From: a virus
Virus record (IMG/VR): IMGVR_UViG_3300006318_000066
Location: 1-24,535 of that record
Length of the DNA: 24,535 nucleotides
Reading direction: 5' to 3' (one strand)
The position numbers and the translations under genes were made by a program. The notes beneath the pieces are model-generated. The model saw only the letters and a program-made list of their open reading frames with translations, ran no database searches and was not told the origin of the DNA. Shown piece after piece: positions 848-21,385 of this stretch; position 1 is the stretch's first letter; every line of letters begins with the position of its first letter.

Positions 848-930
848 ACATACTTTATACCCTAGCTGGTATTGTGGCAATCTTAACTATTATTATAGTT
901 ATGAGTGTCTTTGTAATTGCTTCTATTTAA
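844..930 (+). CDS. Tiny hydrophobic membrane peptide, 28 aa
   Basis: ATG 844 overlaps the preceding stop as ATGA. Almost the whole peptide is one hydrophobic helix (LAGIVAILTIIIVMSVFVIA). Its last 8 bases overlap the end of the cyclase gene on the opposite strand, and a hairpin spans the stop codon. It could be a membrane-acting phage peptide, for instance holin-like or a membrane-complex subunit, but no family can be named. Support is the overlap architecture and hydrophobic content only. Confidence 0.5.
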   Translation: MNILYTLAGIVAILTIIIVMSVFVIASI

Positions 931-943
931 TAGAATAGCAATT
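915..943. terminator. Hairpin between convergent genes, possible bidirectional terminator
   Basis: AATTGC TTCTA - TTTAA loop - TAGAA (TA bulge) GCAATT forms an 11-bp stem with a 2-base bulge. It spans the stop codons of the + strand 28-aa gene and the - strand cyclase gene. On the + strand it is followed by a T-rich stretch (about 946-960); on the - strand no clear U-run follows. The stem is AT-rich, so termination strength is uncertain. Confidence 0.45.
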
Positions 944-2551
944 AACCTTTTCTTTCTTACCCTTTACAGTACAAATACCTAGTTTATAAAACTTAAAGTC
1001 TAAATCTTTTTTAGTATTTTGAGATATTACTATTGTAGTATTGAAATCTTTACTCTTACCTTCCAATCTACTTGCCAAATTAACAGCGTCACCAATAACA
1101 GAATAATCAAAACGTTGTTCAGACCCCATATTACCTACAAGACACTCACCAGTATTGATACCTATACCAATGTTCAAAGGTGGGTCAAACTCTCCACTCT
1201 TATTCATTTTTTTAACTGTTTTTCTCATTTGGTACGCAGATAATATTGCTAGTCTTTTATGTTCTGGATTATCAAGTGGTGCGTTCCAAAATGCCATTAT
1301 ACAATCACCCATATACTTATCAATAGTACCACCATTTTTTAATATTATACCCGTCATTGCAGTTAAAAATTTGTTAACATATCGGGTAAGTTTTTCTGGA
1401 TTACCTTTCATAGATTCCGATATAGGAGTAAAGCCACGTATATCAGAAAATAAAAATGTCATTTCTTTTCTTTCACCACCTAGTTTTAATAGTGATGGAT
1501 TCTTTTGTAGTTTCTTAACCATATCTGGAGATAGATAGTGTTCAAATTGTTTCTTAATTTGTAGTCTTAATTTATTTTCTTTTGCATAGTTTTGATATGT
1601 TAACTGACCCCATATAATAGAACCTATTACAAGAGGACTAAACCAATCAGTTATGATTAAGTGTTGCGTCCATAGATAAGAACTTGCAAGTGTTAAATCA
1701 AATAAGTATCCACCAAACCATATCGCAGACCATATTACACTACATCTAGGTATAACTATGAGAAAGAATAGAGCACCTAATATTATAAATGCTAATTCAC
1801 TATGTGGTAACCAATAAGGTCTACTAATAAAATTACCTGACAATAAAGTTTCTGTACTGATTGCCATAATTTCGTGTGTGTTCTTTAAACCATTAGGAGT
1901 AGTTACAAACGTTGAACCTTTGAACGTTGTACCTATGAAAACTATTTTACCTTTTACAGACGACCAATCTTTATCAGTAAAATCTATTCTAGGAATATGA
2001 TGTCTGAAATCAATCCAGATATTATCTTTTGCTGAAGTTTTTGCATTGATAACTTTTAAGATAACATCAGGTATAGAACCATCAAGAGGTAGTTTTCTTA
2101 TAGTGCCATCTATATCAACTGGTACAGATACATTACCTATTGCTAATGCTTTACGTGATATACTTTGTAGATTTTTTACTTCATCCGTTTCAGTAAGTAT
2201 GACTGGATATTTTGAAATCATTTTTAAAAATACTTCATCACCACCTAATCTATCTTTATGTGGGAAGACTACTTGAAGAACGACAAGAGCGGCACCATTT
2301 TTATATGCATTGATTATAGTACGACCAAGTAAATCTCTTTTCCACGGCCATTGTCCATTCTTTTTTAATGCTTTGTCTGAAATGTCTACTAGAACTAAAC
2401 TCCTTGATTCATAATTCTTACCAAATGATTGGTAGAAATCAAAGGTGTTTAGCTTTGCTGTCTGTAGCAATACTGGATTTGATAAGTATATTCCGAGTAA
2501 TATAATTAAAGTCAGATATACTGTCCACGTTTTAGTCAATTTTTTAATCAT
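923..2551 (-). CDS. CHASE2-domain adenylate cyclase (class III), 542 aa
   Basis: Membrane-bound enzyme expected to make cAMP from ATP in response to an extracytoplasmic signal. Order: transmembrane helix (about residues 10-26), CHASE2 sensor domain (about 35-240; LVDISDKALKKNGQWPW is typical), three membrane helices (about 251-318), a linker helix, then a class III cyclase domain (about 362-540). Catalytic residues are intact: metal-binding D370 (FSDIRGFT) and D416 (DKYMGD), adenine-selecting K412, and transition-state N491 and R495 (GDAVNLASR). The second purine-selecting position is S484, which fits class IIIb bacterial adenylate cyclases (usually Lys/Thr) rather than guanylate cyclases. 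It is the only gene on this strand and is divergent from csgF. No Shine-Dalgarno sequence is evident before the start. In bacteria CHASE2 cyclases often sit near FecR-domain genes, and a FecR gene lies nearby here. A full sensor cyclase is unusual in a phage. Confidence 0.93.
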   Translation of the reverse strand: MIKKLTKTWTVYLTLIILLGIYLSNPVLLQTAKLNTFDFYQSFGKNYESRSLVLVDISDKALKKNGQWPWKRDLLGRTIINAYKNGAALVVLQVVFPHKDRLGGDEVFLKMISKYPVILTETDEVKNLQSISRKALAIGNVSVPVDIDGTIRKLPLDGSIPDVILKVINAKTSAKDNIWIDFRHHIPRIDFTDKDWSSVKGKIVFIGTTFKGSTFVTTPNGLKNTHEIMAISTETLLSGNFISRPYWLPHSELAFIILGALFFLIVIPRCSVIWSAIWFGGYLFDLTLASSYLWTQHLIITDWFSPLVIGSIIWGQLTYQNYAKENKLRLQIKKQFEHYLSPDMVKKLQKNPSLLKLGGERKEMTFLFSDIRGFTPISESMKGNPEKLTRYVNKFLTAMTGIILKNGGTIDKYMGDCIMAFWNAPLDNPEHKRLAILSAYQMRKTVKKMNKSGEFDPPLNIGIGINTGECLVGNMGSEQRFDYSVIGDAVNLASRLEGKSKDFNTTIVISQNTKKDLDFKFYKLGICTVKGKKEKVNCYSIK

Positions 2552-2575: not shown

Positions 2576-2583
2576 TATAAATA
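2576..2583 (+). promoter_or_regulatory. T4-type late promoter box upstream of csgF
   Basis: A perfect TATAAATA, the T4 late-promoter -10 consensus read by gp55-type sigma, lies 24 bases before the csgF start, inside the 56-bp divergent gap. Transcription would begin around 2589-2590, leaving a short leader with the ribosome site GAGAAGGA (2597-2604). It was the only exact copy I noticed on the + strand. It implies that the curli-like genes are made late, with virion and lysis proteins. The gap is AT-rich, so chance occurrence cannot be excluded. Confidence 0.6.
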
Positions 2584-2607: not shown

Positions 2608-3072
2608 ATGCGTTTAATAGCCATTATTTTAACAGTATTATTGTTTATTCCTAGTGCCTATGCAAGTGAATTGGGGTTTGAATTCCACAGTCCATCATTT
2701 TCAGGTAAAGGAAAATCTTCACACTATCTAACGATAGAGAATATTGAGAAGACTAGGAAAGACGCCATAAAAGCAGCAAATAAAGCGGCAGCTGATAAAG
2801 CAACAGCAGACGCCAAGGCAACTGCTATAGCAAAATTTAAAGCAAATTTAGAGAGTAGATTTTATACTGCTCTAGCAAAACAAATTACAGACAACGTATT
2901 TGGTACTGATGGTTTACAACAAGACTCTGGTACATTTACATCACCAGTTGGTGGTGAAGTAGTAACTTGGACTACTACAACAACAGGTTCAAATGATACC
3001 GTAACCGTAGTTGTCACGGAGTCCGATGGAACTGTAACGACATTTACAATGCCTAAAGAGGACAACTCGTAA
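2608..3072 (+). CDS. csgF: Curli assembly factor CsgF homologue, 154 aa
   Basis: CsgF caps and plugs the CsgG outer-membrane channel and couples curlin secretion to fibre nucleation at the surface. The protein has a Sec signal peptide (LLFIPSAYA, cleavage probably after residue 19). The mature N-terminus ELGFEFHSPSFSG matches the CsgF pattern (F-x-F-x-x-P-x-F-x-G) that inserts into the CsgG pore. A Lys/Ala-rich helical segment (about 48-85) follows, then a Thr/Val-rich beta C-terminal region. Length is close to that of E. coli CsgF (about 138). The start has a good Shine-Dalgarno (AAGGA) and follows a late-promoter box. The stop overlaps the csgG start (TAATG). The central Ala/Lys-rich helix is more repetitive than in enterobacterial CsgF. 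Confidence 0.88.
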   Translation: MRLIAIILTVLLFIPSAYASELGFEFHSPSFSGKGKSSHYLTIENIEKTRKDAIKAANKAAADKATADAKATAIAKFKANLESRFYTALAKQITDNVFGTDGLQQDSGTFTSPVGGEVVTWTTTTTGSNDTVTVVVTESDGTVTTFTMPKEDNS

Positions 3073-4220
3073 TGTTTAAGTACATAGGTATATTTTTACT
3101 AACATTATTGTTAGTAAGTTGTGCAGGCAAACCAAAGTTTGATGTAAGAACACAAACAGTTGCTTATAAAGATTTAACAGTTGTACAGGCACCTAAAGGT
3201 GACCCTATTGTAATTGCTGTTTATGATTTTTTAGATATGACAGGTCAAAAGAAACCTGGAGGCAACTTTGCGTCTATGAGTACAGCAGTAACTCAAGGTT
3301 CATATCAATTGTTAATTAAAGCATTACAAGACGCAGGCGAAGGCAAATGGTTTAGAGTAGTAGAACGAGCAAGTTTGCCAAGTTTATTACAAGAAAGAAA
3401 ATTAATACGTTCTACAAGACAACAAGTTAATGGAGAAGGTGCAGAACCATTACCGCCATTGTTATTTGCAGGTGCATATATAACAGGTGGTATTGTAGGG
3501 TATGATAGTGATATTAAATCAGGTGGTTTAGGTGCTAGAATATTAGGTATTCAAAGCAACAAACAATTTAGACAAGATATAGTTACTATTATATTAAGAC
3601 TAGTTAATGTACAAACTGGTGAAGTAGTTATAACAACTACTGTTGAAAAGACTATTGTTTCAACAATGACAGGTGGAGATATATTTAAGTATTTTGATAC
3701 TGATACAATGTTATTAGAAGTTGAAGCAGGATATGCTAAAAACGAACCAGTAACTTTTGCAGTAAGAAAAGCAATAGAAAAAGGTGTAGTAGATTTAATT
3801 AATCAAGGTGCAGAAAAAGGACTATGGGAGTTTGAACCAATAGTTGAAGTACCTGAAATTAAAGACTACCTAGATGAAACTGGTACAAGTGATATTAAAG
3901 TTGATATGGGCGAAGTAAAACCAGAAAAAACATATGAAGATTTTAAGAAAGAAAAGAAAGCTAGAAAGCTAGAAATAAAAAATTATAACAAAAAACACGG
4001 TACAAAATTTAAAACTTGGGACGAATATCAAGCACATTTAGCACACTTAATAGCACTTGAAGCTAAAGAAGCAGAAAAAGAAAACCGTAAGAACGGTATA
4101 CAAGAGAAAATAACTGAAGAGGAAGAGTGGAACCAAGTAGACGAACAAACAGAAACAAAGGAGAATGCTGATGAAAAAGATAATGATAGCGATAGTGATT
4201 CTTCTGGCGACAACGATTAA
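3072..4220 (+). CDS. csgG: Curli secretion channel lipoprotein CsgG homologue, 382 aa
   Basis: CsgG forms the nonameric outer-membrane channel that exports curlin subunits (type VIII secretion). The product begins with a lipoprotein signal ending LLVSC, so Cys17 should be lipidated. Family hallmarks follow in order: IAVYDFLDMTGQ, STAVTQGSYQLLIKAL, WFRVVERASLPSLLQERKLIR, ITGGIVGYDSDIKSGGLGAR, LRLVNVQTGEVV and a C-terminal NEPVTFAVRKAIEKGVVDLI. Unlike E. coli CsgG (277 aa), it carries about 100 extra residues: a Lys/Glu-rich helical stretch and a very acidic Asp/Ser tail (KDNDSDSDSSGDND). The last 50 bases overlap the signal peptide of the next gene in another frame. Start overlaps csgF (TAATG) with AGAGGA upstream. 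The family call is firm; the role of the extra tail is unknown. Confidence 0.95.
   Translation: MFKYIGIFLLTLLLVSCAGKPKFDVRTQTVAYKDLTVVQAPKGDPIVIAVYDFLDMTGQKKPGGNFASMSTAVTQGSYQLLIKALQDAGEGKWFRVVERASLPSLLQERKLIRSTRQQVNGEGAEPLPPLLFAGAYITGGIVGYDSDIKSGGLGARILGIQSNKQFRQDIVTIILRLVNVQTGEVVITTTVEKTIVSTMTGGDIFKYFDTDTMLLEVEAGYAKNEPVTFAVRKAIEKGVVDLINQGAEKGLWEFEPIVEVPEIKDYLDETGTSDIKVDMGEVKPEKTYEDFKKEKKARKLEIKNYNKKHGTKFKTWDEYQAHLAHLIALEAKEAEKENRKNGIQEKITEEEEWNQVDEQTETKENADEKDNDSDSDSSGDND
4159..4163 (+). promoter_or_regulatory. Shine-Dalgarno that decides the curlin-like gene start
   Basis: AGGAG lies inside the csgG coding end. It is 7 bases before ATG 4171 but only 1 base before the alternative ATG 4165, so 4171 is the better start. 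That start also gives a cleaner signal peptide beginning MKKIMIAIV. Confidence 0.65.
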
Positions 4221-5259
4221 AAGTTTCGCAGGTAATTCCGTATATATTCAACAAGATAATCAAAACAGCGACGGATCAGTCTTTATAAAACAAGATGGTT
4301 CAGGAAATAAAGTAGGTATAAGTACCTCTTCAACTTTTAATATAAAAGGTGCAAATTTAACACTTATCATAAAACAATTAGGTAATTCAAATTTAGCAAC
4401 CGATAGCAACCACAAGTCATTTATGGGTTCTAATATGACTTTTGATTATACAGCAACAGGTAACTCAAACGTATTAAGATTAGACCTAGATGACGTAGGT
4501 GCTGATGGTCATTATTATGATATTGATATTACAGGTGGTTCAAATATAGTAGAACTAGATACTCATACAAGTGATGACATACAAGATACTCACATAGATT
4601 TAGATATAAGAGGAGACTCAAATGATTTTTGGGCATATGTTAGAGGTGATTCACACTTCTTATATGTTCTTATGTCAGGTGATTCAAATGATGTAGAGTT
4701 TTATGGTGCAACAAACTCAACAGGTATGGTTGGTTCTAGTAAAGCAAATGTTATGATTGGTCCAGATGTAGAGTCACACGGTATCTTTGCAGACTCAACT
4801 GGTGATGAAGGTGCTACAATTGATGTTTATATAATTGGAAGTTCCAATACTGTTCATATGGCAAGTTGGGGTGCAAGCAACTATCAAGTCCACGATATCA
4901 TAGGTGATTCAAATATTTTAGATGTTCATCCAGACGCAGTTGGTTCACACGTTAGAATGATACAATATGGAGATAATAATTATATGAAAACTGTAACTAG
5001 TGGAGATGATAATGTTTATAGATATTATGGAAGTGGTGGAAATAATAAAGCATATGTTTATATCTATACTTCGGACGCAACAGTAGAATTAAAACAAACA
5101 GGCGGTGCTAATACTGCCACTCTTACAATTTCTGGTTCATCAATATACGATTATACTTTACTTGTAGACCAAGATGGTTCAGATACTTGTACATATTCAT
5201 ACAATAGAAGCAATCAAACAGCAGATACAACTGTACAATTAAATAACAGCGGGTGTTAA
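4171..5259 (+). CDS. Secreted curlin-like beta-repeat protein, 362 aa
   Basis: Probable cargo of the CsgG/CsgF channel. A Sec signal peptide (about residues 1-20, ending KSFA) is followed by curlin-type segments (NSVYIQQDNQN, SVFIKQDGSGNK, LTLIIKQLGNSN). A long array of turns of the form G-[DGNS]-[SND]-N is flanked by alternating hydrophobic and polar strands. Turn spacing is mostly 11 or 22 residues, matching the half-repeat and repeat length of curlin beta-solenoids. The C-terminus has two Cys (residues near DTCTYSY and the final NNSGC), which could form a disulphide. At 362 residues it is more than twice the length of CsgA or CsgB (about 150), and its repeats are rich in Asp, Tyr and His. 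The gene begins within csgG and abuts the FecR gene. It is not a close CsgA copy; a virion or fibre adhesin is the alternative. Confidence 0.75.
   Translation: MKKIMIAIVILLATTIKSFAGNSVYIQQDNQNSDGSVFIKQDGSGNKVGISTSSTFNIKGANLTLIIKQLGNSNLATDSNHKSFMGSNMTFDYTATGNSNVLRLDLDDVGADGHYYDIDITGGSNIVELDTHTSDDIQDTHIDLDIRGDSNDFWAYVRGDSHFLYVLMSGDSNDVEFYGATNSTGMVGSSKANVMIGPDVESHGIFADSTGDEGATIDVYIIGSSNTVHMASWGASNYQVHDIIGDSNILDVHPDAVGSHVRMIQYGDNNYMKTVTSGDDNVYRYYGSGGNNKAYVYIYTSDATVELKQTGGANTATLTISGSSIYDYTLLVDQDGSDTCTYSYNRSNQTADTTVQLNNSGC
4381..5112 (+). repeat. In-gene repeat array with 33/66-base periodicity (G-x-[SND]-N turns)
   Basis: Copies of the turn codons (GGT/GGA, then codons for D/G/N/S, S/N/D/A and N) begin at 4381, 4459, 4534, 4612, 4645 (His for Asn), 4678, 4837, 4903, 4969, 5002, 5035 and 5101. 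From 4612 on, intervals are 33 or 66 bases apart from one 159-base step; the first three are 78, 75 and 78. DNA identity between copies is modest apart from GGTGATTCAAAT, which recurs, so selection appears to act on the protein fold. Confidence 0.7.
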
Positions 5260-6789
5260 ATGAGAAAGATATTTTTACTAATATCATTTCTAGTACTCTT
5301 CTGTTCTAGTGCGTTGGCTCAAACCGTTGGTACGGTTATAGGTCAAATGGGTACTACTTGGAATGAACGTGATGGAAAAATTGAAAATACTTCAATGGGT
5401 TATGAATTACAAATGTGGGACTTTCTTCAAACAGGTGAAGATGGTGGTATGATATTAAAGTATGCTGATAATACTAAATTTACAATGGGTCCAGGTACAG
5501 AATTAACTATTGATGAATATTCTTTTGATACTTCTGTTATACCAATTAAAATTGCAATGAACGTATCAGTTAATGTTGGTACATTTACATACGAATCAGG
5601 TTCTATATCTAATTTAGGTGGTGAAGTTAATATAAATGCTGGTAATGCCACAATTACAGTACAAGGTACTGCTTTTTCAGGAACAGTTGATACTTCAGGC
5701 AAAGCAACAATTACTTTGTTGCCAGATAGTACTGGTGCAGTAGGACAAGTAACTGTATCTAATGACGCAGGTTCTCAAACAATAACTAATGCTTACAATT
5801 CAGTAACCGTTTATACAAATGATTTAGCTCCAACACCTCCAAAAATAGAAACTAATAAACAAGATATTATTGAATTAGATAAATTTGAAGATGAAATTAA
5901 AGATGAAAGTCAAAAACATTTTGGTGATATAGATTCAAAATCTGAAATGTCTAAAGAAGAAACTCAAGCACAGGAGATGGAAGAGGCATTAATTAATGAA
6001 GAAGCAAGTGTTGTAGAAGATAGTAATACAATTGTTGGTACAGATATGTCAGTTAGTGAATCAGACGCAATGATTGAAATGGAATCAGTAGAAGAAAGTA
6101 CTTTAGTTGAAGTTATAGATGATGTTGATACATCTTATTATGACGAATGGGAAAGTGATTTAAAAGATTGGGGTTATATAGATGAAGATAACCAGATTTC
6201 AGTTTGGGATGCAGAAGGTGAAAAAACTATGGACTGGGATGACGCAAAGAAAATGTATGCAGAAATGGATCAAGCATACTTTGACGCCATTGGTTGTTCA
6301 GATTGTACTTGGGACACTATAAATTGGGATGATGTAGATTGGGACGCAGTTGATTGGGAAGCATACTATGATGAGTATAATGAACTATTAGAAGATTATG
6401 GATTAACTTCTTGGGCAGTTGAAGAAGAAGAGGTTAACGTAGTTGAAGAAACTAAAGAAGAAACAGAAGCAACTGTAGTTGAAGGATATACTTGGGAAGA
6501 TTTTGCTTTAGATGACGCTTACTATAGCAATTCTGAATACATAGCGGCAGGTGGTCCTCCAACATTAACTCTACAAAACTATTGTGAGTATAATGGTTAC
6601 GAAGACTATTGGTGTAACCAAGACTATGTTGATTACTTAAACTCGTGGTATAAAGATGACTGGACTTTAAAAGTAACCAATGATAGTTGGACTAAAGAAT
6701 CTAAAAAGATATTTGGTAAACTATATGGTTGGTGTGGAAGTTGGCCAATTGTAAGATGTGTGACAATCAACCTAAACCTTGGAAGATGA
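5260..6789 (+). CDS. Secreted FecR-domain protein with acidic Trp/Asp-rich tail, 509 aa
   Basis: A signal peptide (cleavage probably after FCSSALA, residue 20) is followed by a FecR/Ig-like beta domain (about 22-190) with VGTVIGQMGTTW, LQTGEDGGMILKYADNTKFTMGPGTEL and AGNATITVQGTAFSG, the usual FecR-domain pattern. Such domains bind partners in the periplasm or at the surface, often in signalling or adhesion systems. After about residue 195 the chain is strongly acidic, then becomes rich in Trp, Asp and Tyr, with tandem NWDDVDWDAVDWEAYYDEY (about 348-366) and scattered Cys (CSDC, YWCNQ, WCGSW). It directly follows the curlin-like gene and its stop overlaps the next ATG (ATGA). In this context it may be a second exported surface component or a periplasmic partner of the CHASE2 cyclase. 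The tail is not recognised. Confidence 0.82.
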   Translation: MRKIFLLISFLVLFCSSALAQTVGTVIGQMGTTWNERDGKIENTSMGYELQMWDFLQTGEDGGMILKYADNTKFTMGPGTELTIDEYSFDTSVIPIKIAMNVSVNVGTFTYESGSISNLGGEVNINAGNATITVQGTAFSGTVDTSGKATITLLPDSTGAVGQVTVSNDAGSQTITNAYNSVTVYTNDLAPTPPKIETNKQDIIELDKFEDEIKDESQKHFGDIDSKSEMSKEETQAQEMEEALINEEASVVEDSNTIVGTDMSVSESDAMIEMESVEESTLVEVIDDVDTSYYDEWESDLKDWGYIDEDNQISVWDAEGEKTMDWDDAKKMYAEMDQAYFDAIGCSDCTWDTINWDDVDWDAVDWEAYYDEYNELLEDYGLTSWAVEEEEVNVVEETKEETEATVVEGYTWEDFALDDAYYSNSEYIAAGGPPTLTLQNYCEYNGYEDYWCNQDYVDYLNSWYKDDWTLKVTNDSWTKESKKIFGKLYGWCGSWPIVRCVTINLNLGR

Positions 6790-7397
6790 AAGACTTAAAG
6801 AAAACATATATATCAGATTGGGAGTGGGCAGATTGGGATACATATTGGGACGCATTATATGATTGGTGGTATACAGGTTATGATTATAACAATGAAGATG
6901 ACCAAAGTAATTGGGAAGATGAATATAATTATGAAGATGACTATGATATAGACGCAGAATTAGAATTATTATTAGCAAGTTATGATAAAGAAGAGTGTTT
7001 AAATTATGGATATTATTGGGACAATGCCAAGTCTAGTTGTGGTACTGAATGGGTAGATAATAGTGGTTCAGAAACAACTGTAACTGCTAGTGGAGAAACT
7101 TTAAATTATAGTACAGGAGATGTAACTCAAACCTTAACAACAACCAGCGGTGGTGTGTCAACAAGTACTACTTCTACAGGAAGAGTATCAACGTTAGATA
7201 ACGATTTTGACGCAACTGCCTCAACGTCTGGTGATTACACAATCATAAATAGATATAACGACAACCATAGAGCTTATATTAAGACTGAAACTAGTAATGA
7301 AGCAGACGTCCAAATATTACAAGATAAAGAAGCTCAACACATTGACGTAGGGACTTCCTCTACACAAAATAATATAACTATAATACAAACGGATTAA
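6786..7397 (+). CDS. Acidic Trp/Tyr/Asp-rich protein with curlin-like C-terminus, 203 aa
   Basis: ATG 6786 overlaps the FecR stop as ATGA. The N-terminal half (SDWEWADWDTYWDALYDWW) has the same odd Trp/Asp/Tyr composition as the tail of the preceding FecR protein, plus a Cys pair (EECLNYGYYWDNAKSSC). The second half is Thr/Ser-rich and ends in segments like curlin strands (EADVQILQDKEAQ, NNITIIQTD). No signal peptide is visible, which is odd for a protein of this composition. The reading frame is open back to 6720, so the chain could instead start at ATG 6756, or it could be the displaced C-terminal part of the FecR protein after an old or programmed frameshift. I saw no convincing slippery heptamer in 6720-6789. 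Function unknown. Confidence 0.65.
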   Translation: MKDLKKTYISDWEWADWDTYWDALYDWWYTGYDYNNEDDQSNWEDEYNYEDDYDIDAELELLLASYDKEECLNYGYYWDNAKSSCGTEWVDNSGSETTVTASGETLNYSTGDVTQTLTTTSGGVSTSTTSTGRVSTLDNDFDATASTSGDYTIINRYNDNHRAYIKTETSNEADVQILQDKEAQHIDVGTSSTQNNITIIQTD

Positions 7398-9032: not shown

Positions 9033-11348
9033 ATGGTGAATGAGAATATAAGTGTAGTGAAGCGAAATGGTAGAGGTAAGGAATCTCTAAACATTGAAAA
9101 GATACATCAAATGGTAGAATATGCGTGTGAAGACATAACGCAAGTTTCTGCTTCTTCTGTAGAAATGAATAGTGGTCTACAATTTTATGATGGCATATCA
9201 ACAAACGAAATTCAACAAATCTTAATTAAATCAGCAAACGATTTAATCACTTTAGAAAATCCAAATTATCAATATGTTGCCGCTAGACTATTACTCTATA
9301 GTTTAAGAAAACAATTATTCCATAAAATGTGGGATCATCCACATATTTACGACCACGTAAAAAAATGCATTGATATTAATGTATATGATAAAGAAGTTTT
9401 AAATTGGTATGATAAAAAAGATTTTGATAGAATGGAAAATTGGTTAAATCACGAAAGAGATTATACTTTTACATATGCAGGTTTAAGACAAGTCATTGAC
9501 AAATATCTAGTGCAAGATAGAAGTACAGGACAAATTTTTGAAACTCCACAATTTATGTATATGATGATATCTGCTACATTATTTGCAAAATACCCAAAGA
9601 ACAAAAGGATGAGTTATGTTAAAAAATATTATGACGCTATTTCACGTTTTAAAATCAATATTCCAACACCTGTTATGGCTGGTGTACGAACTCCTATTAG
9701 GCAGTATGCGAGTTGTGTCTTGGTGGATGTTGATGATACTTTGCCTAGTATCTTTTCCAGCGATATGGCTATTGGCAAGTATGTTGCCCAAAGAGCAGGT
9801 ATTGGAATCAATGCAGGAAGAATTAGAGGGATCAACTCACGTATTAGAGGTGGTGAAGTACAACATACTGGCGTTATTCCTTTTCTTAAAAAATTTGAAG
9901 CAACTGTTAAGTGTTGTACTCAAAACGGAGTACGTGGAGGTTCGGCAACTGTTCACTTCCCTATTTGGCACAAAGAAATAGAAGATATAATTGTATTAAA
10001 AAATAATAAAGGTAGTGAAGATAATAGAGTAAGAAAATTAGACTACTCTATACAGTTATCAAAATTATTTTACGAAAGATTTATTAATGATGAAGATATA
10101 ACTTTATTTTCACCACACGAAGTACCAGAACTTTATGAAGCGTGGGGAACAAAAGAATTTGATGAACTTTATGAAACAGCAGAAAGAAAAACAAGTGTAT
10201 GGAAAACTAAAGTAAAAGCACAGGACTTGTTTATGGCAATTTTAAAAGAAAGAGCAGAAACAGGTCGTATTTACATTATGAATATAGACCATTGTAATAC
10301 ACACTCTAGTTTCAAAGATAGAGTTTATATGTCTAACTTATGTCAAGAGATTACTTTACCTACAGAACCAATAAGTCATATAGATGGTAAAGGAGAAATT
10401 GCATTATGTATTTTATCAGCAATTAATGTAGGACTTTTAAAAGATTTAGATGAATTAGAAACCTTATGTGATTTAGCAGTAAGGTCATTAGACGAAGTTA
10501 TAGACCATCAAAGATATCCAGTTAAAGCGGCAGAAATTTCTACAAGAAATAGAAGAAGTTTAGGAATTGGATATATTGGTCTTGCTCATTACTTAGCAAC
10601 ATTAGGACTTGGTTATGAAACTAAAACTGCTTGGAAAGAAGTAGATAAGTTATCAGAAGCATTCCAGTATTATCTATTAAAATCTAGTAATGAATTAGCA
10701 AAAGAAAAAGGCAAGTGCGAAGCATTTGACAAAACAAAGTATTCAGATGGTATCTTACCAATTGACACCTACAAAAAAGAAGTAGATGAGATTGTATCTC
10801 GGAAACTTTCATATAAATGGGAAGACTTGAGGAAAGATATTAAGGAATTTGGGTTAAGACATAGCACACTCACTGCTCAAATGCCTTCTGAAAGCTCTAG
10901 CGTGGTTTGTAATGCCACAAACGGCATTGAACCACCTAGGGACTATATTTCAGTTAAGAAAAGTAAGAAAGGTACATTAAAACAAGTTGTGCCTGATTAT
11001 AAAAAATTAAAAAATAATTATACGTTATTATGGGATATGAAAAGTAATGAAGGATATATAAACATAGTAGCAGTAATGCAAAAATATTTTGACCAATCAA
11101 TTAGTGGTAATTGGTCATATAATCCTGAAAATTATGATGAAGGAGAAATACCTTTATCAATAATGGCAGAAGATTTATTAACAACTTATAAATTAGGTTG
11201 GAAGACTTCTTATTATCAAAACACATATGATAGTAAGAAAGATATAGAGGAACCTGTACATCCTATCGGTTGGAAAGATGATGTACCAGAAACCAAAACT
11301 ATAATGGAGAAAAAAGACGAAGAAGAATGTGAAACCTGTGTAATTTAA
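9033..11348 (+). CDS. nrdA: Class Ia ribonucleotide reductase, large subunit NrdA, 771 aa
   Basis: Reduces ribonucleoside diphosphates to deoxy forms with NrdB, supplying dNTPs for phage DNA. An N-terminal ATP-cone (about residues 5-95) is followed by the catalytic barrel. Active-site residues are present: C228 (ASC) and C459 as the redox pair, N435-x-C437-x-E439 in SNLCQEI, and the Tyr pair in TSYYQNT for radical transfer. The C-terminal CETC motif (C766, C769) for re-reduction is intact. An AGGAG at 9015-9019 overlaps the primase stop but is 13 bases from the ATG, a long spacing. The next gene follows after 9 bases. Length fits T4 NrdA (754) and E. coli NrdA (761). Confidence 0.97.
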   Translation: MVNENISVVKRNGRGKESLNIEKIHQMVEYACEDITQVSASSVEMNSGLQFYDGISTNEIQQILIKSANDLITLENPNYQYVAARLLLYSLRKQLFHKMWDHPHIYDHVKKCIDINVYDKEVLNWYDKKDFDRMENWLNHERDYTFTYAGLRQVIDKYLVQDRSTGQIFETPQFMYMMISATLFAKYPKNKRMSYVKKYYDAISRFKINIPTPVMAGVRTPIRQYASCVLVDVDDTLPSIFSSDMAIGKYVAQRAGIGINAGRIRGINSRIRGGEVQHTGVIPFLKKFEATVKCCTQNGVRGGSATVHFPIWHKEIEDIIVLKNNKGSEDNRVRKLDYSIQLSKLFYERFINDEDITLFSPHEVPELYEAWGTKEFDELYETAERKTSVWKTKVKAQDLFMAILKERAETGRIYIMNIDHCNTHSSFKDRVYMSNLCQEITLPTEPISHIDGKGEIALCILSAINVGLLKDLDELETLCDLAVRSLDEVIDHQRYPVKAAEISTRNRRSLGIGYIGLAHYLATLGLGYETKTAWKEVDKLSEAFQYYLLKSSNELAKEKGKCEAFDKTKYSDGILPIDTYKKEVDEIVSRKLSYKWEDLRKDIKEFGLRHSTLTAQMPSESSSVVCNATNGIEPPRDYISVKKSKKGTLKQVVPDYKKLKNNYTLLWDMKSNEGYINIVAVMQKYFDQSISGNWSYNPENYDEGEIPLSIMAEDLLTTYKLGWKTSYYQNTYDSKKDIEEPVHPIGWKDDVPETKTIMEKKDEEECETCVI

Positions 11349-11357
11349 AGGAGCCGT

Positions 11358-12029
11358 ATGGCGTTTTTATGTGCAAATGTTCCTCATATAGAGGTACTAG
11401 TTAAGAAACAATACCTTTACGATTTAGAGAAAGGTCACGGAGAGTTTGAACCAGGTATCTGGTGTACAGTTAAAAGTATTCAAGGTAGAGCATTATATTT
11501 TGAAACATATCTGTATGAAAGTGGAGCATTATATGATAAGTTGCCTATAAATGCTTTTGTATGGAAAAAAACGAAAGAAGATATAAAATTAAGTGAATTA
11601 CAATTATGGGACTGTTTTGATTATGATATATCAGTTATTGAGAAGCAATTAGTGAGTGGTAATAGATGTACATATTTGTCGCCAAGTAAAAAAATGTATG
11701 AAGGTAATTATATGTTTAGTATAGATAGTTGTAGTGCAACGAATAAAGAATTGAACGTAGGTTATAGTGAAAATCCATCACAACATAAATCATTTAACAT
11801 AATAAAATTAGATAATGGTCATTTTGCTGCTCAACCAAACAATAGAGTTTTATTTTATGACAAGTCTTTAACACCAAGTAAACCAAAAAGACCTGATTAT
11901 AAAGTATCTACTAGAGAATATAGTGTAGATAATATGGATAAATGGACAGCAGGTGATAGTGATGAACACCATTATAATTTAACAGAATCAGAAAGATTAC
12001 AAGCAGAATTAGAACCAATAAATGACTAA
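11358..12029 (+). CDS. Unknown protein between nrdA and nrdB, 223 aa
   Basis: A strong ribosome site (AAAGGAG, 4 bases before ATG) overlaps the nrdA stop, and its own stop overlaps the nrdB start by 8 bases, so it is locked into the reductase operon. The protein is mixed alpha/beta, soluble, with no membrane segment. The N-terminal region (CANVPHIEVLVKKQYLYDL) and the Cys- and Tyr-rich middle show no enzyme motif I know. The last ~50 residues look disordered and charged. I recall uncharacterised genes at this position in marine T4-like phages; that is memory, not a search. It could help reductase assembly or be a separate takeover protein. Confidence 0.85.
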   Translation: MAFLCANVPHIEVLVKKQYLYDLEKGHGEFEPGIWCTVKSIQGRALYFETYLYESGALYDKLPINAFVWKKTKEDIKLSELQLWDCFDYDISVIEKQLVSGNRCTYLSPSKKMYEGNYMFSIDSCSATNKELNVGYSENPSQHKSFNIIKLDNGHFAAQPNNRVLFYDKSLTPSKPKRPDYKVSTREYSVDNMDKWTAGDSDEHHYNLTESERLQAELEPIND

Positions 12030-13125
12030 AAGCGTATTTAATACAGAAAAAAAATTAGACTATACTAAACAACCTATGTTTTTTGGTAAAGACTTACAGG
12101 TGCAAAGATATGATGAACTAAAATATCCTATCTTTAATAAATTGTTTCAACAACAATTAGGTTATTTTTGGAGACCAGAAGAAGTATCTTTACAGAAAGA
12201 TATATCAGACTATAGAGAGTTAAATGAACAACAAAAGTTTATCTTTACATCTAATTTAAAATATCAAACAATGATGGATAGTGTGCAAGGACGAGGACCT
12301 GCTTTAGCATTTTTACCTTTTGTTTCAATACCTGAATTAGAGAGTTGTGTTCTTGCGTGGGACTTCTTTGAAAACATACACTCACACTCATATACATATA
12401 TCATTAAAAATTTATATTCAAATCCTAGTGAAGTTTTTGATACTATAATTTCAGATGAAAAGATTGAGAAAAGAGCAATTAGTATAACACAAAGATATGA
12501 TGATATGATAAATTTAGGTTATAAATGGCAATTAAAACCAGATAGTGTTGATATGTATGAGTTGAAAAAGAAATTATATTTAACATTGATGACTGTTAAT
12601 ATATTAGAAGGATTAAGATTTTATGTTTCTTTTGCGTGTTCGTTTGCGTTTGGAGAATTAAAAATGTTAGAAGGTTCTGCTAAAATATTATCATTGATAG
12701 CACGTGATGAAACTTTACATTTATCAATCTCACAAAGAATACTTAATAACTATCGTGATAATGAAAATGATAGAATTATGAATAAAGTGATGAAAGATAC
12801 AGAAAAAGAAGTTTATACAATGTATGAAAATGCAGTAGGACAAGAGAAACGTTGGGCGACTTATTTGTTCTCTAAAGGTTCTATGATAGGATTATCAGAA
12901 AAACTATTACATCAATTTGTAGAGTATATGGCAAATAGACGTATGAGAGCAATAGGATTAGAACCACAATATGACCAGAAAGTAAATCCATTGCCTTGGG
13001 TTGACCATTGGTTAAATAGTAGGTCATTACAAAATGCACCACAGGAAACAGAAATTGAAAGTTATGTTATAGGTGGTATTAAACAAGATGTACAAAAGGA
13101 TCAGTTTAAGAAATTTAAATTATAA
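12022..13125 (+). CDS. nrdB: Class Ia ribonucleotide reductase, small subunit NrdB, 367 aa
   Basis: Holds the diiron centre and tyrosyl radical used by NrdA. All ligands are in place: D86, E117, H120, E196, E230 and H233, with the radical Tyr at Y124 (ENIHSHSYTYII). The WRPEE motif (Trp50) of the radical path and a C-terminal KKFKL tail that docks to NrdA are also present. The sequence follows E. coli NrdB closely (376 aa). The retained Tyr and carboxylates argue for the ordinary Ia diiron-tyrosyl type rather than radical-site variants. Start overlaps the previous gene by 8 bases with no clear Shine-Dalgarno, so coupling is likely. Confidence 0.97.
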   Translation: MTKSVFNTEKKLDYTKQPMFFGKDLQVQRYDELKYPIFNKLFQQQLGYFWRPEEVSLQKDISDYRELNEQQKFIFTSNLKYQTMMDSVQGRGPALAFLPFVSIPELESCVLAWDFFENIHSHSYTYIIKNLYSNPSEVFDTIISDEKIEKRAISITQRYDDMINLGYKWQLKPDSVDMYELKKKLYLTLMTVNILEGLRFYVSFACSFAFGELKMLEGSAKILSLIARDETLHLSISQRILNNYRDNENDRIMNKVMKDTEKEVYTMYENAVGQEKRWATYLFSKGSMIGLSEKLLHQFVEYMANRRMRAIGLEPQYDQKVNPLPWVDHWLNSRSLQNAPQETEIESYVIGGIKQDVQKDQFKKFKL

Positions 13126-13133
13126 AATATATT

Positions 13134-13313
13134 ATGGACGAAGAGATAATAAAGAACACTAGGTTTAGTTGTGGTAATTGTAAAGTGACCTATACTATAA
13201 AATATGATGAAGAAGAAACAGATATGAAACCTATGTCTTGTCCATTTTGTAGTTATGAAATAGATGAAGAAGATGATATTGGAGATGAAAATGAAGAAAC
13301 TAGTTGGGATTGA
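13134..13313 (+). CDS. Small acidic zinc-ribbon protein, 59 aa
   Basis: Starts 8 bases after nrdB. Two Cys pairs (SCGNC at about residues 12-16 and SCPFC at about 35-39) flank a beta-prone linker, the pattern of a single zinc ribbon. The C-terminal third is Asp/Glu-rich. The end overlaps the start of the RuvC-like gene in another frame. Such mini-ribbons may bind nucleic acid or RNA polymerase; no specific function can be read. It is too short to be picked up by simple length cut-offs but is well supported by its motif and spacing. Confidence 0.7.
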   Translation: MDEEIIKNTRFSCGNCKVTYTIKYDEEETDMKPMSCPFCSYEIDEEDDIGDENEETSWD

Positions 13314-13848
13314 TTATAGTTTAACAAGTCCTGCCATATGTGTTACAGATGATTTTAAGTTTGAATATAGTCATTTCTATTTTCTTACTAATAAGAAAAA
13401 ACATTTAGGCAAATTTGGTAATATAATTGGTTATGAACATCAACCTTATACAGACCCTATCCAAAGATTTACTCAAATTTCTGATTGGGTTCTAAAAGTC
13501 TTAAAATTAAATCACTCTAAAGACAATATAGATACACTAGCAATAGCAATAGAAAACTATTCTTATGGTTCTAAAGGTCAAGCATTATTTCAAATAGCAG
13601 AAAATTGTGGCATACTTAAATATAGATTAGCAGAACAAAAATACAAATATAGTGTTATTGTACCAAGTGTTGTTAAGAAACTTGCTACAGGTAAGGGTAA
13701 TGCAGATAAAGAAATGATGTATGAACAATTTTGTAAAGATACAAAAACAGATTTAAAGAAATTATTAGACACAACAAAAGCAGGCAATCCAGTATCAGAT
13801 ATAGTTGATAGTTGGTATATAGCAAAGGCACATTATGGGCGACTTTAA
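13291..13848 (+). CDS. RuvC-like Holliday junction resolvase, 185 aa
   Basis: Predicted RNase H-fold nuclease that resolves branched DNA during replication and packaging. Acidic catalytic residues sit in the expected order: D8 (VGIDYSLTS), E88 (IAIENYSYG) and D170/D173 (SDIVDSWYIAKA). A basic central part (SVVKKLATGKGNADKEMM) matches RuvC-type phage resolvases. The start is taken at 13291 because GGAG (13281-13284) lies 6 bases upstream; earlier in-frame ATGs at 13264, 13273 and 13285 lack this and add a poor N-terminus. It overlaps the zinc-ribbon gene by 23 bases and the next gene by 14. T4 itself uses endonuclease VII (gp49), so this may be its functional substitute. Confidence 0.85.
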   Translation: MKKLVGIDYSLTSPAICVTDDFKFEYSHFYFLTNKKKHLGKFGNIIGYEHQPYTDPIQRFTQISDWVLKVLKLNHSKDNIDTLAIAIENYSYGSKGQALFQIAENCGILKYRLAEQKYKYSVIVPSVVKKLATGKGNADKEMMYEQFCKDTKTDLKKLLDTTKAGNPVSDIVDSWYIAKAHYGRL

Positions 13849-14152
13849 AATATTAATACTTGCATATCTAATTGGTCATAGTCCAATAGAAACACAACAA
13901 ACTTTCCAAATGGAAGGTTGGTATAAAAATATGGAAGAGTGTAAAAAAGAATTACTTTTACAAAAACCAGATGGAAGATACGAAGTGATGAACGAGTTTG
14001 TTGTAGATGGAGAGTTTAAATGGGATTGGTTAGTTGCAGGTTGCAAAAGTGATACAACAGGAGAAGAATTCCAAGTATGGCCTGACTACCCTAAAGGTAA
14101 ACCAAAAGAGTTAGAAGGCATTGAGTTTGATGTTTTTGAATTAAATATATGA
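13835..14152 (+). CDS. Unknown protein with possible N-terminal signal or membrane segment, 105 aa
   Basis: AAAGG (13824-13828) precedes ATG 13835 by 6 bases, within the end of the RuvC-like gene, and the stop overlaps the next start (ATGA). The N-terminus (FKILILAYLIGHS) is hydrophobic and may be a weak signal or anchor. The rest is soluble, with two Cys (MEECKK and AGCKSD) that could form a disulphide, and several Trp. It looks like a small exported or membrane-associated phage protein. No family recognised. Confidence 0.7.
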   Translation: MGDFKILILAYLIGHSPIETQQTFQMEGWYKNMEECKKELLLQKPDGRYEVMNEFVVDGEFKWDWLVAGCKSDTTGEEFQVWPDYPKGKPKELEGIEFDVFELNI

Positions 14153-14604
14153 AATTATTAAAAGCAAGACAATATGTAACCTGTCAACACGCACCATTAA
14201 AAGGAATAAAACCTAAAGTTACAATAGTGCCTGTTAAAGATTTAATGTTAACTGCTGATTATGAATGGATGATAAAAAGATATCCTGCTTTTAAAACTAG
14301 TATTGAAAGTGCAGGTATGAAGTTTCCTATTATCTATACAGATTTAGAACACTATTGGTTAAAAAGAAGATGGAAGAAAGACGAAGAAGGAAATTGTATA
14401 CCTGGCATTTCAGTACACACAGGTAATAAAAGAGTGTATTGGGCAAAGAGAAATGGGTTTACCCATATAGAAGGATACTTTGTTAATAATAAAGATGAAC
14501 AAGCGGCAATAGTTAGACAAACATTTTTAGCACCTGCTAGTTTTCCAACTACAAATGCTCGTGCATATCAAGAAGAGGTTAATAAATATGAAACCATTAA
14601 TTGA
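14149..14604 (+). CDS. Unknown protein with ParB-N-like features, 151 aa
   Basis: Coupled to the previous gene by ATGA. The central/C-terminal stretch has a layout like ParB N-terminal (nuclease-like) domains: FPIIYTD, then HTGNKRVYWAKRNGFTHIEGYFV, then a short helix (KDEQAAIVRQ). A GNKR-x(n)-G motif with a following strand is the usual sign of this fold, but the match is loose. The N-terminal part (KVTIVPVKDLML) would be the first strand and helix. It overlaps the next gene by 17 bases. Alternative: an unrelated phage protein of the same size. It sits at the border between the DNA and modification genes. Confidence 0.7.
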   Translation: MKLLKARQYVTCQHAPLKGIKPKVTIVPVKDLMLTADYEWMIKRYPAFKTSIESAGMKFPIIYTDLEHYWLKRRWKKDEEGNCIPGISVHTGNKRVYWAKRNGFTHIEGYFVNNKDEQAAIVRQTFLAPASFPTTNARAYQEEVNKYETIN

Positions 14605-15244
14605 ATTTCAAGATGAATTTCCTAAACAACTATTAGACGAATTTGCTCAAAGTAATTTGATGATATATAATTGGGCAATGCCAGTTAAAGATTGTCAAAT
14701 GATTATTGAGAAGTTTGAACAGGTAGTCAAATTTGATAAAACACAGGTAGATGAATTTAAAACTGGTCGTAAAAACTTTACTGAAATAGATATAGACAAA
14801 TATGGTGATTCAGATTTTTGGAAAGAACCTAAAAAGAAATTTGTTGCAATGATGGAAAAATATAAATTAGAATTTATGAAAAATTTGAATATTAAAGATT
14901 TAGATTTTCCACCAGTAATAGATATGGAAAATATAAGAATAAAAAAATATATGCCTAATGACGAAGACCAATTTAAAGTACACGTAGATGTTGTTCGTTC
15001 TATGGGTGATTCATCAAAAAGATTTTTAGTTTATATATTATATCTTAATGATGTTGAAACAGGTGGTCATACATATTTTCCAAAACCTGAAATATTAGTT
15101 AAACCAAGAGCAGGAAGATTGTTAATGTTTCCACCTTTTTGGACTAATCCACACGCTGGATTAAAACCAACTAGTGGACCAAAATATGTTATGATGTCTT
15201 ATTTACATTATGGGGACGTAGAAGATCCGAGGTATAAAAAATAA
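14588..15244 (+). CDS. 2-oxoglutarate/Fe(II) oxygenase, prolyl 4-hydroxylase type, 218 aa
   Basis: Predicted to hydroxylate a protein or small-molecule substrate using 2-oxoglutarate, O2 and Fe(II). The double-stranded beta-helix core has the iron triad H132-x-D134 (KVHVDVV) and H189 (TNPHAGL), with K199 (GPKYVMMSY) placed to bind 2-oxoglutarate. LVYILYLNDVETGGHTYFP and GRLLMFPPFW are typical of the P4Hc family. The start is set at 14588 (AGAAGAGG about 10 bases upstream); ATG 14555 would extend back inside the previous gene with no ribosome site. It overlaps the SET gene by one base (TAATG). Such oxygenases are frequent in marine T4-like phages; the substrate is unknown. Confidence 0.9.
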   Translation: MKPLIEFQDEFPKQLLDEFAQSNLMIYNWAMPVKDCQMIIEKFEQVVKFDKTQVDEFKTGRKNFTEIDIDKYGDSDFWKEPKKKFVAMMEKYKLEFMKNLNIKDLDFPPVIDMENIRIKKYMPNDEDQFKVHVDVVRSMGDSSKRFLVYILYLNDVETGGHTYFPKPEILVKPRAGRLLMFPPFWTNPHAGLKPTSGPKYVMMSYLHYGDVEDPRYKK

Positions 15245-15543
15245 TGTATCAACCATTACCACACGAATTAGAAATTAAAGTAAGTAAAATCCACGGTTCA
15301 GGATTGTTTGCAAAAGAAGATATTGATGACAATACAAAGATAGGATTAGGTTGGTTAGTAGTTGGTGCAGAATTAATAAGAACTCCTTTAGGAGGTTTCA
15401 TTAATCATAGTGATAATCCTAATACAATAAAGGAAAAAGTAGATGATAAGTATTATCTCTATAGTATAAGAGATATAAAAAAAGGTGAAGAGATAACTTT
15501 AAAATATACTTTTTATAGTGTAAATGAATCTAGAACAAAGTAA
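15244..15543 (+). CDS. Minimal SET-domain protein (putative lysine methyltransferase), 99 aa
   Basis: SET proteins transfer methyl from S-adenosylmethionine to lysine. The short chain carries the core landmarks: HGSGLFAKEDI (about 17-27), FINHSDNPN (N54-H55-S56, the pseudoknot/SAM motif) and IKKGEEITLKYTFY (G81-E83, Y88), in the right order. At 99 residues it is near the minimum for a SET fold and lacks pre- and post-SET regions. The region between the first motif and NHS is much shorter than in eukaryotic SET domains, as in viral and bacterial versions. Start TAATG-overlaps the oxygenase; end overlaps the radical SAM gene by 20 bases. Substrate unknown: host protein or virion protein. Confidence 0.88.
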   Translation: MYQPLPHELEIKVSKIHGSGLFAKEDIDDNTKIGLGWLVVGAELIRTPLGGFINHSDNPNTIKEKVDDKYYLYSIRDIKKGEEITLKYTFYSVNESRTK

Positions 15544-16402
15544 AGAATTATTTAAAAAAAATATATATTCAGTAGAGATAGGTATTCATAGTTATTGTAA
15601 TAGAACTTGTACATTTTGTCCATTGTCAAGAGAAGATGTAAACAGAAGAGATAAAAAGAATACAATTTATATGACAGATGAAATGTATGTAAGTATAATG
15701 AAACAACTAGGTGAAATTGATTTTGATGGTCGTATAGATTTTACAAGATATCACGAACCACTTGCAGATAAAGAAGCAATATTAGATAGAATTAGAATAG
15801 CAAAGAAGTATATACCTAAAGCAAAATTAAATATTAATACCAATTCAGATTATCTTAATAAAAAGTATATACAAGAGTTGATAGACGCAGGCGTAGATAA
15901 TATAGCAATGCAAGCGTATTTAAAAAATGGTACAACTGTTTATGATGAAAACGAAGTATTTGAACGTATCAATCATATATGTAATAGAATAGGTGCAGAA
16001 AGAATTAATCCAGAGGAACATAAAAATAAAGATTGGATTATATACAGATTGCCACAATTCAAAGGTTCTATTCACGCAAGAAATTATTGGAAGAATGGAA
16101 CTAATAGAGCAGGTAGTGTACCAATAGATTTAGGTTATAGAAGAACACAACCTTGTACGAGTATGAATAGAGGAATTTTTATAGAGTATGATGGTTCAAT
16201 GACTATCTGTTGTGATATGTTGACACCAGAAGTCCATAGTAAATGGGCAGTAGGTAATTTAAAAAAAGAACCTAGTTTATTTTTAAACTATACTAGTGAT
16301 TACTATACAGAATGGAGAGAAAGAATTAATAAAGCAGATTGGTTTAAAGGTTCTCCTTGTATAGTTTGTAAAAGGGATGTAAGAGGTAAAGAGGCAAGAT
16401 AA
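15524..16402 (+). CDS. Radical SAM/SPASM-type enzyme, 292 aa
   Basis: The N-terminal CxxxCxxC (C25, C29, C32 in YCNRTCTFC) binds the 4Fe-4S cluster that cleaves SAM to a radical. A TIM-barrel core follows (IDFTRYHEPL, KLNINTNSDYL). The C-terminal region has a SPASM/twitch-like Cys set: C211 (QPCTSM), C229/C230 (GSMTICCDM), and C279/C282 (SPCIVC), for auxiliary cluster binding. The family includes peptide-modifying and sugar or nucleotide-modifying enzymes; the substrate cannot be read. It starts inside the SET gene with no clear ribosome site and its stop overlaps the asnB start (TAATG). The neighbours suggest a role in glycan or protein modification. Confidence 0.9.
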   Translation: MNLEQSKELFKKNIYSVEIGIHSYCNRTCTFCPLSREDVNRRDKKNTIYMTDEMYVSIMKQLGEIDFDGRIDFTRYHEPLADKEAILDRIRIAKKYIPKAKLNINTNSDYLNKKYIQELIDAGVDNIAMQAYLKNGTTVYDENEVFERINHICNRIGAERINPEEHKNKDWIIYRLPQFKGSIHARNYWKNGTNRAGSVPIDLGYRRTQPCTSMNRGIFIEYDGSMTICCDMLTPEVHSKWAVGNLKKEPSLFLNYTSDYYTEWRERINKADWFKGSPCIVCKRDVRGKEAR

Positions 16403-18216: not shown

Positions 18217-18223
18217 GAAAATT

Positions 18224-19378
18224 ATGAAATATCCATTAGCTTGTGATACTTGGGATCAAAAAGAACTAGACGCAATACAAGAAGTTATAAAAAGTGGACG
18301 ATATACAATGGGTCCTCACGTCAAGAAGTTTGAGCAAGAGTTTGCCGACTATTTTAGATGTAAAGACGCAGTTATGGTTAATAGTGGTTCAACTGCCAAT
18401 CTATTAATGATAGCATTGTTAAAATTAAAATATAAAAAAGGTGGTAATATAATTGTGCCTGCTGTATCTTGGTCAACAACATATTTTCCATTACAACAAT
18501 ACGGTTTCAAATTAAATTTTGTAGATGTAGATAGAGAAACTTTAAATATAGACCCTAATAAAGTTAGAGAAGCAATTAATGATGATACTTGCGCTATATT
18601 TGCAGTTAATCTTTTAGGTAACTCCTGTGACCACTATTCATTAATGCATATTGCTAGAGAAAACAATATTATGTTAATAGAGGACAATTGTGAGAGTTTA
18701 GGTGCTCAGACATATAACTATGAATATTGTGGAACGTTTGGCGATTTAGGTAGTTTTTCTTTCTTCTTTTCACATCACTTACAAACAATGGAAGGTGGTA
18801 TGATTGCTTGTAGAGATAAAGATGACGCAGATTATTTAAGGTCATTAAGAGCACACGGTTGGTGCCGAGATTTACCAGACGATAATAAGATTTATAAGAA
18901 GACTGGAGATAAATTTAAAGATAGTTTTACGTTTGTAACTCCAGGATATAGTGTTAGACCATTAGAAATGAGTGGTGCGATAGGTAGTGTGCAACTTAAA
19001 AAAGAATTTGCAATGAGAACACAAAGAATTAAAAATGCTAAATATTTTCAAGAAAGATTTAAAAATAATAAAGATATTTTATTACAGAAAGAAATAGGAA
19101 CATCTAGTTGGTTTGGATTCTCACTAGTATTACAAAACAATTTAGAAGGTAAACGTGATGAAGTTGTTAAGAAACTTATAGAAAATGGAGTAGAGTGTAG
19201 ACCTATTGTTGCAGGAAACTTTATGAAAAATCCTGTAATAGATTATCTTGAATATTATAGTAATAGTTGTCCTAATGCAGATTATATTCATAAGAATGGT
19301 TTGTTTATAGGAAATGATATAGGAGATTTAACATTAAACATTGATATGGTATACAGTATAATAAAGGAAGTAAAATGA
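18224..19378 (+). CDS. DegT/DnrJ/EryC1-family enzyme with His at the PLP-lysine site (ColD-like 3-dehydratase), 384 aa
   Basis: Fold-type I PLP family acting on nucleotide-linked keto-sugars. Motifs: NSGSTANL (53-60, phosphate binding), IEDNCESLGA (D154, pyridine contact) and GSFSFFFSHHLQTMEGG (176-192). In most members the residue three after FSF-x-x-x is the Lys that binds PLP; here it is H184. That substitution marks the dehydratases ColD (GDP-4-keto-6-deoxymannose 3-dehydratase) and RfbH rather than aminotransferases. No RfbH-type 2Fe-2S Cys set is obvious. GDP-mannose 4,6-dehydratase, which makes the ColD substrate, is the very next gene (ATGA overlap), so a GDP-3,6-dideoxyhexose route is the best guess. 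AGGAAA precedes the start. The family call is firm; the specific reaction is inferred. Confidence 0.88.
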   Translation: MKYPLACDTWDQKELDAIQEVIKSGRYTMGPHVKKFEQEFADYFRCKDAVMVNSGSTANLLMIALLKLKYKKGGNIIVPAVSWSTTYFPLQQYGFKLNFVDVDRETLNIDPNKVREAINDDTCAIFAVNLLGNSCDHYSLMHIARENNIMLIEDNCESLGAQTYNYEYCGTFGDLGSFSFFFSHHLQTMEGGMIACRDKDDADYLRSLRAHGWCRDLPDDNKIYKKTGDKFKDSFTFVTPGYSVRPLEMSGAIGSVQLKKEFAMRTQRIKNAKYFQERFKNNKDILLQKEIGTSSWFGFSLVLQNNLEGKRDEVVKKLIENGVECRPIVAGNFMKNPVIDYLEYYSNSCPNADYIHKNGLFIGNDIGDLTLNIDMVYSIIKEVK

Positions 19379-20418: not shown

Positions 20419-20429
20419 GAGATATAAAA

Positions 20430-21188: not shown

Positions 21189-21385
21189 CAGATAATGATG
21201 ACAACCAAAGAGGATTAGACGCAAGTTTTGAAAATGAAAGTAGAACTGTAACTATACCTCTAAAAGAATATGATAAGTTAAAAGAAGAAAGTAAATATAT
21301 TACAGACCCTACCTTGATTGCAACGATAGATAAGATAGAGTTTTTTGTAAAAGAATTGAGAAAGCATATTGTAAGAAAATTATAA
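21185..21385 (+). CDS. Small charged protein, 66 aa
   Basis: ATG 21185 overlaps the glycosyltransferase stop (ATGA) with GGAG 9 bases upstream; the stop overlaps the next ATG (TAATG). The chain is acidic at the start (MTDNDDNQRG), with a beta-like TVTIPLKEYDKLKEE segment and a C-terminal amphipathic helix ending in basic residues (KELRKHIVRKL). This looks like a small accessory or DNA-binding-type protein, but no family is recognised. Coupled overlaps make it likely real. Confidence 0.7.
   Translation: MTDNDDNQRGLDASFENESRTVTIPLKEYDKLKEESKYITDPTLIATIDKIEFFVKELRKHIVRKL

Follow-up and report, generated by a model that had tools for sequence, protein, structure and literature searches.

The 24.5-kb virus fragment analyzed here at its full length (the window) originates from a T4-like phage; its primase, NrdA/NrdB and RuvC-like resolvase match phage families. 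Around the module described below, the genes assigned through Pfam or PHROGs follow the order cyclase (923-2551, minus strand), csgF, csgG, a curlin-repeat gene and a FecR-domain gene. Rfam and tRNA scans of the window gave no match and thus no riboswitch of the Melnitz type was seen in it. Apart from the module, positions 14555-24533 hold a run of genes resembling a 2OG-Fe oxygenase, a SET-domain protein, a radical-SAM enzyme, an asparagine synthase, a DegT aminotransferase, a GDP-mannose dehydratase, a glycosyltransferase and an IMPDH/GMP reductase, and this run resembles the surface-glycan islands published for pelagimyophages. A small membrane protein is encoded at 683-847. In loci with a downstream cyclase, a sequence similar to this ORF lies directly 5' of csgF, meaning that in the window the divergent cyclase is interposed between both.

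The two export genes proposed by the initial annotation, csgF and a csgG with a lipobox, are confirmed. csgF (2608-3072, plus strand) encodes a protein of 154 aa with a signal peptide (Pfam PF10614, 1.5e-11), and its alignment evidenced retention of the N-terminal FxFxSPSFSG segment, which in E. coli CsgF sits inside the CsgG barrel; on both grounds it is assigned as the CsgF accessory protein. The product of csgG (3072-4220, plus strand; 382 aa; Pfam PF03783, 1.7e-49) matches the sequence of the solved E. coli CsgG at 5.4e-49 and contains a lipoprotein signal with the lipobox LLLVSC, ending in Cys17, and is hence a predicted CsgG lipoprotein channel homolog. Beyond the CsgG core, the aligned proteins carry an acidic/lysine-rich C-terminal extension of variable length. 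The constriction of E. coli CsgG is formed by Tyr51, Asn55 and Phe56; the corresponding loop reads KPGGNFASMSTAV in the phage protein, without the Tyr and Phe at the positions aligned to them. As had been noted for the window, no CsgE was found, in this case in nine related phage records including two complete isolates, with a positive E. coli control, and PMC9599517 likewise reports it as missing from phage and alphaproteobacterial modules. Based on both observations, CsgE is taken as dispensable for the phage form.

The curlin-repeat gene (4165-5259, plus strand; 364 aa, likely true start ATG 4171) encodes the candidate major cargo. The signal-peptide, curlin-like repeat protein described at first was recovered as such: it is predicted to be Sec-secreted, with degenerate repeats that match Pfam Curlin_rpt (PF07012) in two stretches at 6.9e-5, above the Pfam cut-off. 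In the mature protein (counted from residue 25) the strict N-x-x-x-x-x-Q curlin motif does not occur, and a looser strand-Gln motif is enriched (5 vs 1.1 expected, p 0.003). Alignments showed that the C-terminal Cys364 is invariant, plus Cys342. The structure prediction that had been called for was carried out with AlphaFold and produced a long beta-solenoid of moderate confidence (pLDDT 74, pTM 0.77). Foldseek retrieved no significant match for this model, and its VIA matches (Z 13-17) were mainly generic beta-helices, tailspikes among them, rather than curlin, a list that does not by itself rule out a curlin fold.

The curlin gene is also the most variable block of the module. Nucleotide identity between the window and its relative L006 is 93-100% in the cyclase gene, in csgF and in most of csgG, drops to 57-71% inside the curlin gene and is back at 98% where the FecR gene begins. 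The curlins of the clade form two classes, with 54-60% or 71-96% identity to that of the window, and mapping these on the cyclase tree requires at least seven changes, forced by well-supported branches; as read from these sequences, the allele classes have been swapped at least seven times between otherwise similar phages. Exchange of the cargo is expected for an exposed, interacting protein, and equally for receptor-binding proteins. The existence of two interchangeable classes suggests a surface role in phage-phage or phage-host competition, such as superinfection exclusion or adhesion.

Downstream of the curlin gene, the initial annotation recognized a FecR-domain protein (ORF 5260-6789) followed by a separate acidic protein with a curlin-like C-terminus (ORF 6729-7397). 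The domain assignment stands, as this ORF shows a sub-threshold Pfam FecR match (0.0075), matches phage family phrog_37870 (1.5e-21) and has relatives that align with clear FecR proteins; its extent does not, and the second protein has to be withdrawn. In the window a frame slip around 6744-6760 separates the two halves, which constitute a single open frame in 57 of the 57 related loci that show both of them (some are overlapping views of one contig and two are cut by a contig end), of 710-796 aa when complete. A second curlin gene at 6729-7397 was therefore rejected. The slip is unique to the window among the related loci, the very near relatives L054 and L010 having intact copies, and represents either a sequencing/assembly error or a broken gene. 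The FecR-curlin gene thus spans 5260-7397 (plus strand) and its product, of 712 residues in the nearest intact relative, comprises a signal peptide, the FecR domain, an acidic Trp/Tyr-rich middle domain and a curlin-like tail. In the AlphaFold model the helical Trp-rich middle (residues ~288-545) is confident and the overall arrangement unreliable (pTM 0.28); Foldseek found no significant match for it.

The tail (7296-7394, plus strand) ends in ...ITIIQTD. A hydrophobic-x-hydrophobic-x-Gln strand is located at the extreme C-terminus of 21 out of 26 non-redundant FecR proteins, compared to 1.3 expected from shuffling. Among 90 proteins, the preceding strand-Gln lies 22 residues upstream in 62 cases and 21 in 10 cases, a spacing close to the length of 23 +/- 5 published for curlin repeats, which have the motif N-x-h-x-h-x-Q (PMC10192328). 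Since the signal peptide directly precedes the FecR domain, in place of a cytoplasmic N-terminal anti-sigma region followed by a transmembrane helix, and no other Pfam domain matched, the phage proteins are not built like classical anti-sigma FecR. The curlin-type strand at the end of most of them makes a role as fibre partners probable, instead of one in iron regulation.

Homologs of this domain occur in bacteria. With a shorter-form FecR profile, the same class was detected in 139 of 385 alphaproteobacterial genomes; in its best matches the domain mostly stands at the start of long adhesin-like frames of up to 6913 aa. None of the 30 loci examined first displayed a curlin tail, many of these frames being cut by short flanks. 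In 20 loci with wider flanks (up to ~8 kb a side) a class III cyclase was found nearby in five, once divergently oriented like that of the window (L211), and csgG or curlin in none. Conversely, neither FecR nor cyclase was matched next to bacterial csgG loci, and seven csgG-bearing bacterial genomes gave no match with the long phage-form FecR profile, which is unsuitable for them. From this distribution we infer that a FecR/cyclase pair and a curli operon, once separate, came together. A literature search for FecR together with CHASE2 cyclases yielded no direct precedent other than cAMP work in Sinorhizobium.

The cyclase of the window (542 aa) is divergent from the csgF operon and contains a CHASE2 domain (Pfam, 2.4e-27) and a Guanylate_cyc domain (5.7e-24). 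Its catalytic set is intact, comprising the metal-binding Asp pair (D370, D416), the adenine-specifying Lys/Asp (K412, D488) and the catalytic Asn/Arg (N491, R495), as predicted for a class III adenylyl cyclase; all these residues are invariant in 58 of 58 sequences with the exception of N491, kept in 57. Two placements of the cyclase occur in the clade of the window, upstream of the module and divergent or downstream and co-directional, with one orientation switch on the cyclase tree. A cNMP-binding effector was not found in the related phage records searched. In three loci (L041-L043) the minus strand downstream of the module gave another cyclase-like match, which suggests a duplication.

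The octamer TATAAATA, which contains the TATAAAT used as T4-type late promoter sequence for Melnitz in PMC9004378, is located at 2576-2583 (plus strand), 24 nt upstream of the csgF start, and this is its one exact copy in the window (7.5 expected by chance). It precedes csgF in 64 of 72 loci, six more having CATAAATA, and is kept although the flanking sequence diverges among relatives. These observations support the earlier proposal of late expression, and the module is probably expressed late in infection from this putative promoter. Purifying selection acts on all five genes (dN/dS 0.09-0.46).

Altogether, the gene content indicates that this is a genuine phage-borne curli-type (type VIII) export module, and the proposal that a T4-like phage carries it with its own secreted curlin-like cargo is supported, except that the cargo may not be single, as the FecR protein with its curlin tail is a second candidate. 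With a probability of about 0.6, the module is a late curli-like export operon that equips the infected cell with a surface fibre or coat. Once the operon is switched on late in infection, lipoprotein CsgG would form an outer-membrane channel into which CsgF would plug via its conserved N-terminal segment, and the Sec pathway would bring two substrates, the curlin-repeat protein and the FecR protein, to the periplasm. The long, degenerate beta-solenoid would be the major fibre subunit, and the FecR protein would probably dock end-on onto this stack of curlin, which it would anchor, nucleate or cap in a CsgB-like role, displaying its FecR and Trp-rich domains. The cyclase may sense something periplasmic through CHASE2 and make cAMP. 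Exclusion, adhesion, sibling capture and lysis timing are all candidate uses of the fibre. The Pfam and PDB assignments, the conservation of the module, the late promoter, the dN/dS values, the FecR curlin tails, the exchange of cargo and the position of alphaproteobacterial FecR domains at the start of giant adhesin-like proteins count in favor of an export operon. The missing CsgE, the degenerate repeats, the lack of a cNMP-binding effector in the phage records searched, the moderate confidence of the curlin model with its generic beta-helix matches, the poorly modeled FecR domain arrangement and the report in PMC9004378 that its authors saw no clumping of Melnitz-infected cells count against it.

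Other explanations account for part of these data. CsgG/CsgF might now serve another purpose, as a gated pore or a pinholin-like lysis timer, with the remaining genes as passengers or regulators. A lysis role was proposed for Melnitz (PMC9004378), and the absence of the CsgE gate, a loop without the E. coli constriction Tyr and Phe at the aligned positions and late expression would all fit. This explanation is unlikely, considering that holins act on the inner membrane and CsgG is in the outer membrane, that the accompanying curlin and FecR-curlin proteins are secreted and under purifying selection, and that swapping of cargo alleles is not expected of a bare pore. That same swapping is typical of receptor-binding proteins and does not by itself speak against the curlin-like protein being part of the virion, as a tail-spike or fibre, instead of a secreted fibre; late expression and the alignment of its model with phage tailspikes and other beta-helices (Z 13-17) would also conform to this. 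Its Sec signal peptide, its Curlin_rpt matches and its fixed place behind csgG are at odds with a virion protein, as are the Foldseek search without significant match and the generic nature of the VIA beta-helices, making this assignment rather improbable.

PMC7029224 and PMC9599517 suggested that the channel takes up large nutrients (cobalamin, siderophores), in which case FecR would be an iron-linked regulator and the cyclase would provide its signal. This is considered very improbable here, as the FecR proteins start with a signal peptide in place of a cytoplasmic anti-sigma part and mostly have a curlin strand at the other end, the related bacterial domains are found at the start of adhesin-like proteins, and a fibre protein would be superfluous for uptake. 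Finally, the broken FecR gene of the window could denote a laterally acquired bacterial operon carried without function; with dN/dS of 0.09-0.46, a conserved late promoter, the FecR frame intact in all other loci and a very wide distribution, this is highly implausible.

Within the preferred export-operon reading, a more elaborate arrangement is put forward tentatively: a two-part surface fibre composed of a swappable curlin stack, whose two classes would serve as self/non-self types when phages compete, and of the FecR-curlin chimera, which would hold or cap the stack. In this chimera an adhesin-leader domain and a curlin strand would be fused in a new way to do the job of CsgB, and its cognate CHASE2 cyclase would read the state of the fibre or surface.

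The module as a kind has already been published, with a few details that are not found in the available portions of PMC9599517, PMC7029224 and PMC9004378. The present data extend the phage curli modules by a lineage with many members and would refine the published readings in three respects: FecR would be a fibre partner rather than an iron regulator, the module would be expressed late from a T4-type promoter, and cargo alleles would be exchanged. If it is true that a phage fibre coats infected ocean bacteria, superinfection, aggregation and lysis would be affected in very abundant marine bacteria such as SAR11.

An IMG/VR scan with a CsgG profile detected at least 484 confirmed CsgG relatives. 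Nearly every viral locus inspected with enough flank contained csgF-csgG-curlin-FecR, usually together with the cyclase. A complete module including two curlins is located at 9557-16335 of a very large viral contig (L154, 306,714 bases), and a CsgG match without annotation occurs in a 1.5-kb record named Salmonella phage (OR851715.1), which may be host DNA. Clusters of csgF/csgG were reported in pelagimyophages (PMC7029224), and csgF-csgG-curlin-FecR-curlin-cyclase was described in 2022 in pelagiphages, both podo- and myophages, including its ocean-wide spread and expression (PMC9599517). These modules (Podoviridae, Myoviridae and pelagimyophage MAGs) share with the window CsgF, CsgG, CsgA/B-like repeats, FecR and an adenylate cyclase, without CsgE; FecR was taken for an iron regulator, curli regulation was ascribed to the cyclase, and neither a curlin tail on FecR nor exchange of cargo alleles was found in the passages covered. 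The window carries the same set, csgF-csgG-curlin-FecR plus an adenylyl cyclase, on a marine phage. Consequently, the combination of FecR with a cyclase, singled out by the initial annotation as the point to check for novelty, was already published (PMC9599517).

The earlier statement that curli-type genes exist in some marine T4-like phages was borne out by two isolates in which they are annotated, and the search for the gene set in marine phages recovered the module from both of these and from the viral loci. Pelagibacter phage HTVC008M (NC_020484, gp014-gp019) encodes, in order, csgF, csgG, curlin, a FecR-type protein that ends in a curlin strand, a second curlin and an adenylyl cyclase, with TATAAATA before csgF; the FecR-type protein and the second curlin are annotated as hypothetical. 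Its CsgG is 45% identical to that of the window over the full alignment and 50% over the core. In contrast to the window, HTVC008M has a FecR protein of 368 aa (vs 712), two curlin genes (vs one) and a co-directional, downstream cyclase. Methylophilales phage Melnitz (EXVC044M, MZ577097, gp99-gp104) has the same content and likewise differs in its two curlins, short FecR and co-directional cyclase; among isolates, the closest relative of the window curlin is the second curlin of Melnitz (28% identity), and a search of the 130 nt upstream of the csgF start used did not show TATAAATA. Two relatives of 171-177 kb have one curlin gene and FecR open frames of 716-727 aa, vs two genes and 374-379 aa in Melnitz and HTVC008M. 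The alphaproteobacterial FecR-adhesin/cyclase loci (L195-L214) share the FecR domain class (E to 1e-38) and differ from the phage module in that FecR leads large adhesin-like proteins, with no csgG or curlin nearby and no curlin tail in the fetched frames, many of them incomplete. Compared with E. coli curli (csgBAC-csgDEFG), the module of the window lacks CsgE and canonical CsgA/CsgB, has in common the CsgG and CsgF homologs and the Sec-dependent curlin substrates, and adds a FecR protein and a CHASE2 cyclase.
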